A stretch of DNA of 64,000 nucleotides, taken from assembly GCA_001789205.1 (NCBI GenBank), contig MFYT01000011.1, positions 9,049 through 73,048 of the forward strand, written 5' to 3'. This DNA is from Candidatus Raymondbacteria bacterium RIFOXYA2_FULL_49_16. GTDB lineage: Bacteria; Fibrobacterota; OXYB2-FULL-49-7; XYB2-FULL-49-35. Under the pieces are notes generated by a model. That model was given only the letters and a program-made list of their open reading frames with translations. It did no database searches and was not told where the DNA came from. Made by a program: the position numbers and the translations under genes. Of the stretch, positions 14,270 to 18,298 are shown one piece after another. Numbering within the stretch: position 1 is the first letter of the stretch; every line of letters starts with the position of its first letter.

Positions 14270-14536
14270 CTATCCGCAGGCGATCGCAACGTCTTTTTCA
14301 CGGTTTTTTTCCAGTATCAGATTGTCCCATTGCAGCGGCTGGAGGTCTTCCACAATTTTGAAGCTGTCTGGATCCATACACTCTATGCCCCAACCATATT
14401 TGATGTCCTTATCATCATAATATTGCCGGATTATCATGGCGCCAAAGCGGTCTTTTCTGATAACGTTTGGGTCGAGACTGGGCACGGTTTGGCCTTTTTC
14501 CCAGACTTTTTGGATGATTTCTTCAGACCAGGTCAT
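14270..14536 (-). CDS. Small HNH-like protein lacking the catalytic histidines
   Basis: 88 residues with a very strong ribosome site (AAAGGAGG) before the start at 14536. The sequence WSEEIIQKVWEKGQTVP, then NVIRKDRFGAMIIRQYY, KYGWGIECM and LQPLQWDN follows the layout I recall for a family of small HNH-domain proteins, where the corresponding block reads YGWEIDHI and is followed by a conserved N-L-Q-P-L-Q-W. Here the I-D-H-I histidine is replaced (IECM) and the second HNH half is reshaped, so nuclease activity is doubtful. It may be a DNA- or nucleotide-binding remnant, or a regulator. It probably shares a transcript with the small gene at 14633-14860. Confidence 0.6.
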   Translation of the reverse strand: MTWSEEIIQKVWEKGQTVPSLDPNVIRKDRFGAMIIRQYYDDKDIKYGWGIECMDPDSFKIVEDLQPLQWDNLILEKNREKDVAIACG

Positions 14537-14991: not shown

Positions 14992-15096
14992 TTCATTTTA
15001 AGGGCAAATGCAAGACAAAAAATGCAGTTTTCGTGTGTATTTTGCACACGCCTGAAAGACCACAAAAAGCTTGCTTTTTTTTCATTTTAAAGGTAA
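14992..15096 (+). promoter_or_regulatory. Repeat-rich control region before the TIGR02147 regulator
   Basis: Two 16-bp direct repeats, TTCATTTTAAGGGCAA (14992-15007) and TTCATTTTAAAGGTAA (15081-15096), match at 14 of 16 positions. They flank an inverted repeat CGTGTG-N7-CACACG (15032-15050). A further AAAAAGC-TT-GCTTTTT hairpin lies just before the second repeat. Such an arrangement suits binding by a dimeric regulator and attenuation, but no factor is known. The rest of the gap 14861-15115 shows nothing else. Confidence 0.4.
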
Positions 15097-15115: not shown

Positions 15116-15973
15116 ATGAAGAAACTATTCGAATACGCCAACTACCACGAATTTTTGAGCGACTGGTTTAAAGCGCATAAAACCGGCGAGAACCATTGCT
15201 CGTACCAAACCTTTGCCGAACGGGCGGGGTTTCAGGACAAAAGCTCCATACACGCCGTGGTCACCGGCAGACGCGACCTCTCCAAAAACGGCGTCTACAA
15301 GTTCATCAAGGCCCTCCAACTAAACAAAAAAGAAACGAAATACTTTAGAAACCTGGTGGGCTTTAACCAGGCAGGGGACCTTGCCACGCGAAAGTCTTAT
15401 TTCGAACGCATGAACAGCATACGAACCGCGGGCGCAGGCGTGCAGGCGCGCATCATGCGCCAGGACCAATACGACTACTACGCTCAATGGTGGAACAGCG
15501 CAATCCGCTCCTACATTGGCATGCACCCGTTTAAAAACGATTTTAAATTACTGGCCAGGTCACTCTATCCCGCGATTAAACCAATGCAGGCAAAACGGTC
15601 AGTGCGGCTCCTTGAAAAGCTGGGGCTCATTAAAAAAGGCAAAACCGGCACATACGTTCTCACTGAAAAACACATTTCAACAGGCAAGGAAGTGGCTGGC
15701 CTTGGAGTGCTGGATTTTCACGACACCTGCACAAAGTTGGCGTGCGCGGCAATGGCCCACTTGCCCCGTTCCGAACGCCATGTCTCGGGAATGACGCTTG
15801 GTGTGTCCAGGAAATGTTATGAAAAAATCTCTGAAGAGATAATGAAATTCCAGCAAAAAATCAGAGGTATAGTGGACGCTGACAAGGGGTCGGACAGGGT
15901 ATACCAGATGAACGTGTATATGGTCCCGTTCTCAAAACCTGGGAATTGGTCAAAAAGGAAAACCCAAGAATGA
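15116..15973 (+). CDS. TIGR02147 / DUF4423 family regulator
   Basis: 285 residues from 15116, where GAGGGGA precedes ATG. The N-terminal region (LFEYANYHEFLSDWFKAHK ... SYQTFAERAGFQDKSSIHAV) is an HTH-like domain, and the central part (YFRNLVGFNQAGDLATRKSY) and C-terminal DUF4423 follow the TIGR02147 pattern, a paralogous family first noted in Fibrobacter succinogenes and also present in Bdellovibrio. Function is thought to be DNA binding, without biochemical proof. The stop codon overlaps the ATG of the next gene (ATGA), so regulator and lipoprotein are translationally coupled. Confidence 0.8.
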   Translation: MKKLFEYANYHEFLSDWFKAHKTGENHCSYQTFAERAGFQDKSSIHAVVTGRRDLSKNGVYKFIKALQLNKKETKYFRNLVGFNQAGDLATRKSYFERMNSIRTAGAGVQARIMRQDQYDYYAQWWNSAIRSYIGMHPFKNDFKLLARSLYPAIKPMQAKRSVRLLEKLGLIKKGKTGTYVLTEKHISTGKEVAGLGVLDFHDTCTKLACAAMAHLPRSERHVSGMTLGVSRKCYEKISEEIMKFQQKIRGIVDADKGSDRVYQMNVYMVPFSKPGNWSKRKTQE

Positions 15974-17691
15974 ATAAAAAAACCATCGCACCAACAGTCC
16001 TGTGCCTTTGCGCTGCCAGCAGCCTGCTCCTGTGGCAATGCGGCCAACCTTCAGGCCCCGACGTGGCAGGCAACACGTCTGAGACCGGCAATGCGCTTGT
16101 GTCAGGATATGTATACAATTCAAACGGTTCCGCGGCACAAGGAGCTACAATCAGGTTTGTGGCAATTGACCATAATCCCTACGAGACTCATACCATTACA
16201 GACTCCACTTTCACGGACAGCACAGGATGGTATGGCATAAACACCCTTCCATTTGATACCTACAATGTGTTTGCCGCAGGGGTTAATGACAGCCTGGGCC
16301 TGCAGGACTCTGTGGCATTCACAGGCGACACCATACAGGTCCCGGAAAACACAATTAAGACGCCAGGTTCAATGGCCGGGTATATCAAACTGCTTGCCGG
16401 GGACGAACCAGACAAGATAATCGCCATTGCCATGGGGTCTAATACATTCTCGTTCATAACCACTAGCGCCCGATTCAGCTTTGCGGACCTGGCAGAAGGG
16501 CAATATAATGTGAAATTCCTCTCTCTTTTGCCTAAGTACAGTAATTTGGATACAGTATTTCATATTTTTGCGGGCGCGAATATTGATTTAGGAACAGATT
16601 CCATTGTAATACCATTGAAAATACCCATTCCAACAGGGTTTGCCGTTAAATATGACAGCATGACGCAGCGAGTAACGCTCTTGTGGAACAAAATGAACCC
16701 CGCAAAGGTGAGTGCCTACAATGTGTATCGTGAGCATGCTGGCAATGGTGATTCTCTGCTAACGCCAGTGGCAACAACAGACACCTTCTACGTGGACTCC
16801 AACGCCATTCAGGATGAGACCTATATCTATCGTGTGGCTTCAGTGAATGCAGGGGATGAAGAAGGGGTAAAAACGCGTGGAGACAGCGTGACAATTGTAA
16901 GCGCGTACAAATTCCTGCGAGTATTTGCAGCCACAGGCACGAATGACGGACAGGTTTCATTGCCCCAAGGAATCACTATAGATTCCATGAAAAATGTCTA
17001 TGTTGTTGATTTAGGAAACTGGCGAATACAGAAATTCGACAGATCTGGCAACTTTCTAATGAAATTCGGCAGCCAAGGTAATACTAACGGGCAATTCAGC
17101 AGACCACAAGATATCGTAATAGACAAATGGGGTAAAATATACATTACCGACGCAGACCAAATGTGCGTCCATAAATTCAACAGTATTGGTTCATTCGTTA
17201 CAAAATGGAGTACAAAAGGGCTACCATCTGGCATCGCAATTGATTATTCAGGTCGAATATATGTTGCTACACAATCAGATTCAAGTTTCATACAAGTATT
17301 TGATACTGGTGGAGTTAAGCTAAGTGAATGGAAGACACCCGTGGGCAATCTTGATATTGCGATTAAAGACCTTGATACTGTGTTCGTAAGCTCACGAGAT
17401 AATAAGCTAACAACATATTTATCCAATGGTACCCTGATCCAGAGCTGGACAATTAATGGATTAGCAGATGGTTTCCGTTTTGCTATGGATAAAAACAACA
17501 ATTTCTTTATCCCCTTCTGGTATACAAATGATTTTGTTCGTGTTTTTAATAAAGAAGAGAGACTTTTAGGACAATTCGGGAAATCAGGCGCACAAGTAGG
17601 GTATCTTTATTATCCAGTGACAGCATATGTGGATGGAAAAAATGTTTTCATTTGTGCAAATAATGGAATCCAAATATTTACTATTCCTTAA
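15970..17691 (+). CDS. Lipoprotein with carboxypeptidase-regulatory-like, Fn3-like and NHL-repeat domains
   Basis: 573 residues. The signal peptide ends in a lipobox-like SSLLLWQC (Cys about residue 24), then a Gly/Pro/Ser linker, a carboxypeptidase-regulatory-like beta-sandwich (ALVSGYVYNSNGSAAQGATI), a fibronectin-III-like segment (PTGFAVKYDSMTQRVTLLW), and from about residue 315 an NHL-type propeller (NGQFSRPQDIVIDKWGKIYI). It is probably anchored in the outer membrane. It begins inside the stop codon of the TIGR02147 gene. Base use changes within the gene: from about 16950 onward codons become markedly A/T-rich, so the propeller half may have a different origin. Confidence 0.75.
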   Translation: MNKKTIAPTVLCLCAASSLLLWQCGQPSGPDVAGNTSETGNALVSGYVYNSNGSAAQGATIRFVAIDHNPYETHTITDSTFTDSTGWYGINTLPFDTYNVFAAGVNDSLGLQDSVAFTGDTIQVPENTIKTPGSMAGYIKLLAGDEPDKIIAIAMGSNTFSFITTSARFSFADLAEGQYNVKFLSLLPKYSNLDTVFHIFAGANIDLGTDSIVIPLKIPIPTGFAVKYDSMTQRVTLLWNKMNPAKVSAYNVYREHAGNGDSLLTPVATTDTFYVDSNAIQDETYIYRVASVNAGDEEGVKTRGDSVTIVSAYKFLRVFAATGTNDGQVSLPQGITIDSMKNVYVVDLGNWRIQKFDRSGNFLMKFGSQGNTNGQFSRPQDIVIDKWGKIYITDADQMCVHKFNSIGSFVTKWSTKGLPSGIAIDYSGRIYVATQSDSSFIQVFDTGGVKLSEWKTPVGNLDIAIKDLDTVFVSSRDNKLTTYLSNGTLIQSWTINGLADGFRFAMDKNNNFFIPFWYTNDFVRVFNKEERLLGQFGKSGAQVGYLYYPVTAYVDGKNVFICANNGIQIFTIP

Positions 17692-17696
17692 AATTA

Positions 17697-17719
17697 GGGA
17701 CAAGTTCTTCACTTGTCCC
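17697..17719. terminator. Hairpin between convergent genes
   Basis: GGGACAAGT-tcttc-ACTTGTCCC is a 9-bp perfect stem placed 5 bp after the lipoprotein stop codon, where transcription from both sides meets. The following bases are CTGTT rather than a T-run, so it is a weak intrinsic terminator or an mRNA end-protecting hairpin. Confidence 0.5.
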
Positions 17720-17746: not shown

Positions 17747-18298
17747 TCAATAAAGATCATGAGACCCGCCAGAATTATCTTTAAAGCAAAGTTTCCCGGA
17801 AGTTGAGTCAACATAAATAGAACAATATGGTGCGCTTGCAGCGGAAGAAACTTTAGGCTTTATATACCCATTGCTATCTACGACTTGCTGTCCCCCAACC
17901 TTTAAATCACCATTCACTTCAAGCTTTGCACCAGGCGAATTCGTGCCCACACCAACATCGCCGCCGCTTTCAACAAACACCCTTGCCGTGGCAGCTGTGC
18001 ACAGGACTAGCGGTGCGCTTGTACCTGAATCAATCTCCAGCCATTTTGGCTTTCCAGCGCTTCCGCTGCCATACTTGGTCATAGCAGCCGCACCCTGATA
18101 CGAAATCAACTGCACACCAGTGCCAGCGGAACTGCCGGAATCAGCATTCACAACCCCCACCCTTGTCACACTGTTCGCGACCTTTTGCACGTGGAGGGGA
18201 TACGAAATACTGGTAACGCCAATACCCGCATTGCCGCCATTGGTCAGTGTAATGTCAGACGTGTTCGCGGTCTCTGTCACACTTGGATAATTAGCCAT
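17747..18298 (-). CDS. Tail-fibre/adhesin-like repeat protein (orphan)
   Basis: 183 residues, start 18298 with GGAGG upstream. The composition (Gly, Ser, Thr, Val, Ala; few charges) and phrases such as GNAGIGVTSISYPLHVQK, VGVGTNSPGAKLEVNGDL and GYIKPKVSSAASAPYC are those of trimeric beta-structured fibre proteins of phage tails and of bacterial proteins with 'structural' repeats preceding a chaperone. No signal peptide and no C-terminal intramolecular chaperone are present. No other phage gene is nearby, so it is either a domesticated fibre fragment or a cell-surface protein exported by another route. Confidence 0.6.
   Translation of the reverse strand: MANYPSVTETANTSDITLTNGGNAGIGVTSISYPLHVQKVANSVTRVGVVNADSGSSAGTGVQLISYQGAAAMTKYGSGSAGKPKWLEIDSGTSAPLVLCTAATARVFVESGGDVGVGTNSPGAKLEVNGDLKVGGQQVVDSNGYIKPKVSSAASAPYCSIYVDSTSGKLCFKDNSGGSHDLY

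Follow-up and report, generated by a model that had tools for sequence, protein, structure and literature searches.

TIGR02147 regulators are paired with motif-bearing lipoproteins in a repeated two-gene module of the Fibrobacterota

Anatomy of the regulator-lipoprotein pair

Within the window (the whole 64,000-nucleotide stretch of DNA analysed here), a regulator gene is followed directly by a lipoprotein gene on the same strand (Table 1). The regulator is a clear member of the TIGR02147 (Fsuc_second)/DUF4423 family: it scores 269.7 bits against TIGR02147 over positions 1-271 of the 272 in the model (curated cut-off 50), and 91.4 bits against DUF4423 (PF14394; gathering cut-off 30). The TIGR02147 entry itself records no function and describes its members only as a family of paralogues. 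From its N-terminal consensus (FSYRxFAKKAGFSSPSFLKxVIxGKRNLS...KFAKALGL) we infer a helix-turn-helix (HTH) that would bind DNA; HTH profiles match weakly in one of nine paralogues (HTH_3, E 0.052; HTH_31, E 0.069). The fold predicted from the single sequence was not usable (mean pLDDT 35), and the search for a relative of solved structure gave none (best E 0.042, judged to be chance).

Table 1. Features of the pair and its surroundings, in window coordinates.
Feature	Position	Strand	Basis
Candidate operator, perfect dyad CGTGTG-TATTTTG-CACACG	15032..15050		centre ~75 bp before regulator start
TIGR02147/DUF4423 family regulator, 285 aa (start ATG 15116, stop TGA 15971-15973)	15116..15973	+	TIGR02147 and DUF4423 profile scores
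Putative XRE-like HTH region, ~residues 28-70	15197..15325	+	family consensus and weak profile match
DUF4423 domain, residues 112-271	15449..15928	+	profile match
ATGA stop/start overlap of regulator and lipoprotein genes	15970..15973	+	read in sequence
Partner lipoprotein, 573 aa (ATG 15970, stop ends 17691)	15970..17691	+	ORF and profile matches
Signal peptide and anchor cysteine, residues 1-24, lipobox LWQ-C24	15970..16041	+	sequence; cysteine invariant across 36 aligned partners
Post-cysteine cassette motif AGNTSETGN, residues 33-41	16066..16092	+	alignment of 36 partners; reverse search
CarboxypepD_reg-like beta-sandwich, residues 44-103	16099..16278	+	29.3 bits, just below cut-off 32.3
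NHL-repeat beta-propeller region, ~residues 315-573	16912..17691	+	NHL 51 bits in three stretches (cut-off 20); SGL 34.6 bits
9-bp-stem hairpin directly 3' of lipoprotein stop	17697..17719	+	-13.9 kcal/mol, z = -4.2

The partner carries a signal peptide followed by a lipobox cysteine, which identifies it as a bacterial lipoprotein with a predicted location in the envelope, and the lipobox itself is atypical. The CarboxypepD_reg match, sub-threshold in this protein, is above the cut-off in several paralogous partners, and the protein also has an Fn3-like domain besides the NHL propeller.

The hairpin behind the lipoprotein gene is probably the end of a two-gene transcript; it was missed by the terminator scan because it has no T-run. 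Open reading frames on the opposite strand lie on both sides of the pair (14270-14536 and 17747-18298), and these, together with the hairpin after the second stop, make the pair look like a stand-alone two-gene operon. The frame just downstream (17747-18298, minus strand) contains GIGVTS-type repeats and resembles tail-fibre or surface-repeat proteins.

The first-pass annotation of this DNA described the two genes as translationally fused. The ATGA that it saw is indeed shared by the regulator's stop and the lipoprotein's start, and the genes are overlapping rather than fused.

Pairing across the phylum

The genome of the window contains nine TIGR02147 genes, and all nine are followed directly by a lipoprotein gene. 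Seven of these pairs have the exact ATGA overlap, and in the other two the lipoprotein starts 15 and 67 bp past the stop. The family is present in 34 of 40 relatives, with as many as 54 copies seen in one genome. For a broader census we used 141 distinct, nearly complete regulators from fetched loci of approximately 35 genomes, and detected partners with a profile of the partner N-terminus. A lipoprotein partner was found in this way for 126 of the 141 regulators, and starts no more than 30 bp from the regulator stop in 123 of the 126 pairs. The two genes overlap in 90 pairs, and do so by exactly ATGA in 55, so the suggestion that the two proteins are made in step is plausible, with coupled translation as the presumed mechanism.

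As a control, a lipoprotein follows in 7 of 52 other close same-strand gene pairs of the fetched DNA, a rough figure that was drawn partly from lipoprotein-rich loci. The comparison (9/9 and 126/141 versus 7/52) confirms that the pairing is above chance, and it is the rule across the phylum rather than a curiosity. The count of lipoprotein neighbours that the first-pass annotation had proposed thus excludes the opposite outcome, that most TIGR02147 genes have no such neighbour.

Three of the 15 regulators without a profile-detected partner (L052, L067 and L158) do have a lipoprotein on reading. Some of the remainder lie at contig ends and some are followed by a second regulator, which leaves L104, L079, L047, L089, L125 and L127 as true exceptions. 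A secreted protein without a lipobox follows the regulator in L069 and L125, and L190 and L058, which are one gene, show the opposite arrangement, in which a motif lipoprotein immediately precedes the regulator. The L104 and L079 genes are closely related, come from two genera and have no lipoprotein behind them; one of the two genomes does have a motif lipoprotein at a distance of 2.7 kb, on the opposite strand. Tandem cassette arrays occur at L186:2173-18557 and L188:10098-14153, where a single regulator precedes two or three FISUMP-type lipoproteins that are related to one another. In several partners (L040, L060, L062 and L088) an R immediately precedes the anchor cysteine (e.g., ICRC, LVRC, FLRC, HRC), an unusual lipobox that would escape standard predictors.

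No relatives were found in viral contigs, phages or plasmids, collections that therefore give no indication of spread by mobile elements. The single-protein scan for relatives gave only two marginal Marinimicrobia stretches, from genomes without TIGR02147.

A motif behind the anchor cysteine

A few residues past the anchor cysteine, the partners share a previously undescribed motif, roughly AG[GT]-x-[ST]-E-T-x-N, by which the lipoprotein partners of TIGR02147 regulators can be recognized. In the 36 aligned partners the C and G are invariant and the N is kept in at least 90%; a strict regular expression finds the motif in 43 of the 126 partners, versus 0.8% of shuffles. The window pair is a cassette in the sense used here, namely a TIGR02147 gene and, immediately behind it, the gene of a lipoprotein that has this motif.

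Searching the window genome with the N-terminal profile gave eight clear matches, all of them TIGR02147 partners. The ninth partner (L015) lies outside these and carries the variant DVAGGSGAGNPN, and the next-ranked matches are ordinary lipoproteins that align at the signal peptide only; the ordinary lipoproteins of this genome do not have the motif. This search is partly circular because its eight matches were in the profile. The reverse test was made in three other genomes, where, of 64 matches at E ≤ 1e-3, 61 are encoded immediately after a TIGR02147 gene; a few of these were also in the profile, and membership in the profile cannot hide unlinked motif lipoproteins. The numbers of regulators and motif lipoproteins per genome are correlated (Spearman 0.85 for all 41 genomes; 0.97 for the 28 outside the largest genus). 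Motif lipoproteins are absent from six of six genomes without TIGR02147, and sister genomes of the same families have both. A motif search of 100 Marinimicrobia genomes gave just two weak matches, judged on reading to be chance.

The position of the motif recalls the lipoprotein export signal (LES) of Bacteroidota, which is also a conserved stretch just past the anchor cysteine. The motif might then be only a sorting or surface-export signal, with the regulator an ordinary local one, and its presence in proteins whose other domains look surface-adapted fits this idea. We consider it possible but doubtful. Known export signals are short acidic stretches, K-(D/E)2-like, at +2 to +6 (PMC5080379), whereas the cassette motif (AG[GT]xxSETxN) lies for the most part at +6 to +16, its G usually at +7 to +9, and is linked with a regulator gene. 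Two acidic residues at +2 to +5 occur in only 12 of 126 partners, and the window lipoprotein has CGQPSGPD in place of an acidic stretch at +2 to +6. The absence of the motif from the six genomes without the regulator, and from ordinary lipoproteins of the window genome, also argues against a general sorting signal.

Promoters and candidate operators

The dyad upstream of the window regulator is the only perfect match to CGTGTG-N7-CACACG in its genome. Perfect 18-bp dyads occur upstream of regulators in 21 of 143 regions versus 3.8 in shuffles; the comparison was with shuffles and coding DNA rather than with further intergenic DNA, and terminators of neighbouring genes may account for some of these dyads.

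Conserved promoter elements are seen in two sets of orthologs, all from one family (Fibrobacteraceae by gene content) that is far from the order of the window genome. Promoters of the first set keep TGTRGAC twice, 23-24 bp apart, and those of the second keep several copies of GTGTTCYC, in both cases shortly upstream of a TATATT box. The TGTRGAC pair is found at its own regulator in six genomes and at zero to two other places per genome, which is near chance level. Four genomes from three genera each contain the 18-mer GGATGGGATTGGGTGTTC a single time, no more than about 180 bp before its regulator, and the element is identical in all aligned orthologs that extend far enough. Such cassette-specific elements argue for dedicated, local control.

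They also bear on the idea that TIGR02147 proteins are not transcription factors at all, but dedicated cytosolic chaperones or targeting factors that hold the nascent prelipoprotein. Secretion chaperones are encoded beside their substrates, and the translational overlap and one-to-one pairing would suit such a role. We nevertheless think it quite unlikely, given the promoter elements, the HTH-like N-terminus and the poor conservation of signal peptides between orthologs whose regulators are >80% identical.

Divergence of the two proteins

In the pairs that allowed an estimate, dN/dS is 0.02-0.09 for the regulators, which points to strong purifying selection, and 0.14-0.21 for the lipoproteins, where purifying selection is weaker; in the tested pairs these values rule out positive selection on the lipoprotein. 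Within a genome, the more two regulators differ, the more their lipoproteins tend to differ (r = 0.41, p < 0.001). The C-terminal domains of the partners vary (NHL, kelch, laminin-G-like, DUF2341 and FISUMP). Surface variation, which the first-pass annotation raised, would be consistent with the paralogue expansion, the varied C-terminal domains and the faster evolution of the ectodomains, but dN/dS remains well below 1. In one case (L022/L027, orthologous cassettes in two close genomes) the lipoproteins are identical in protein sequence; regulator dS is 0.30 and lipoprotein dS 0.04, and this difference suggests that the lipoprotein gene alone was exchanged by recombination.

Signal peptides are 12-37% identical between orthologous pairs whose regulators are 82-88% identical. 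PrgX-type regulators sense lipoprotein-derived pheromones, and an HTH-type regulator beside a lipoprotein gene invites the analogy that TIGR02147 regulators might sense the cleaved signal peptide of their own lipoprotein. Signal peptides that differ so freely make this highly improbable, and we rejected it.

Between orthologs and close paralogs, whose regulators average 74% identity, the signal peptide is 37% identical, the 20 residues past the cysteine 63%, and the next 180 residues 43%. The better preservation of the motif region, the one-to-one pairing and the exclusive co-occurrence of motif and regulator would be expected of a signalling pair, and envelope sensing was indeed proposed in the first-pass annotation. 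In this reading, which we think unlikely, the ectodomain would detect a ligand or its own state of export, and a shared transducer or protease encoded elsewhere would read AGxSETGN and inform the dedicated TIGR02147 regulator. A signal can pass between a cytosolic regulator and a lipid-anchored exported protein only by way of some further component; no transducer was found in the loci read, whose cassettes encode none that spans the membrane. Once ectodomain similarity is removed, moreover, the motif covaries only weakly with the regulator (partial r 0.13, p 0.011). Were each cassette a private surface-sensing channel, in which the lipoprotein signals ligand or export state through a shared component that reads the motif, and the regulator adjusts the cassette, a notion that we likewise regard as improbable, there would be up to ~50 parallel channels per genome with no transmembrane sensor in the operons.

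A probable dedicated two-gene cassette

The genes are paired and overlap, the motif and the regulator are specific to each other in both directions, the promoters of orthologs keep cassette-specific elements, and the two proteins diverge together. The best explanation, in which we have moderate confidence, is that the pairs form a family of dedicated cassettes, probably self-regulating, whose lipoproteins have exchangeable ectodomains. A common transcript would encode both a cytoplasmic TIGR02147 regulator of the HTH type and a single exported lipoprotein, and translation of the second gene would be coupled to that of the first where they share ATGA. The regulator would bind its own operator in the shared promoter and set, by activation or repression, the level of itself and of its single lipoprotein, so that each paralogous lipoprotein would have a private controller. 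The lipoprotein would be lipid-tethered, with AGxSETGN by the anchor, then the CarboxypepD_reg spacer, and then an exchangeable ectodomain (NHL or kelch propeller, laminin-G-like lectin fold, or FISUMP domain) that is probably exposed at the surface and binds something outside. The weakness of the HTH by profile and the few regulators with no lipoprotein behind them count against this reading.

The results point to a repeated two-gene module that gives each surface-type protein its own dedicated controller, and the first-pass interpretation is partly supported overall. A gene family that ranks among the largest still unexplained ones in Fibrobacter and related bacteria thereby gains a partner, an anatomy and candidate operators. 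Should every lipoprotein have such a controller of its own, the envelope could be dissected cassette by cassette, including in fibre-degrading rumen species.

In SusCD-type loci each outer-membrane protein system has a linked regulator, either an anti-sigma factor or a sensor. The cassettes differ in that they have no membrane-spanning anti-sigma factor or sensor, and consist only of a cytosolic regulator and one lipoprotein. The FISUMP domain (Fib_succ_major; TIGR02145, PF09603) stands behind the same lipobox and motif in several Fibrobacteraceae-like partners and is one of several exchangeable ectodomains; the window partner has the NHL propeller instead. The open-access literature searched contained no description of a lipoprotein partner or motif of TIGR02147, no paper naming TIGR02147 or FISUMP, and for DUF4423 only a listed Bdellovibrio protein. 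Possibly related proteins appear in proteomic studies of Fibrobacter succinogenes S85, where envelope lipoproteins with 'carboxypeptidase regulatory-like' domains shift with substrate (PMC6851124), and a major-paralogous-domain protein was detected on cellulose only (PMC4619616).
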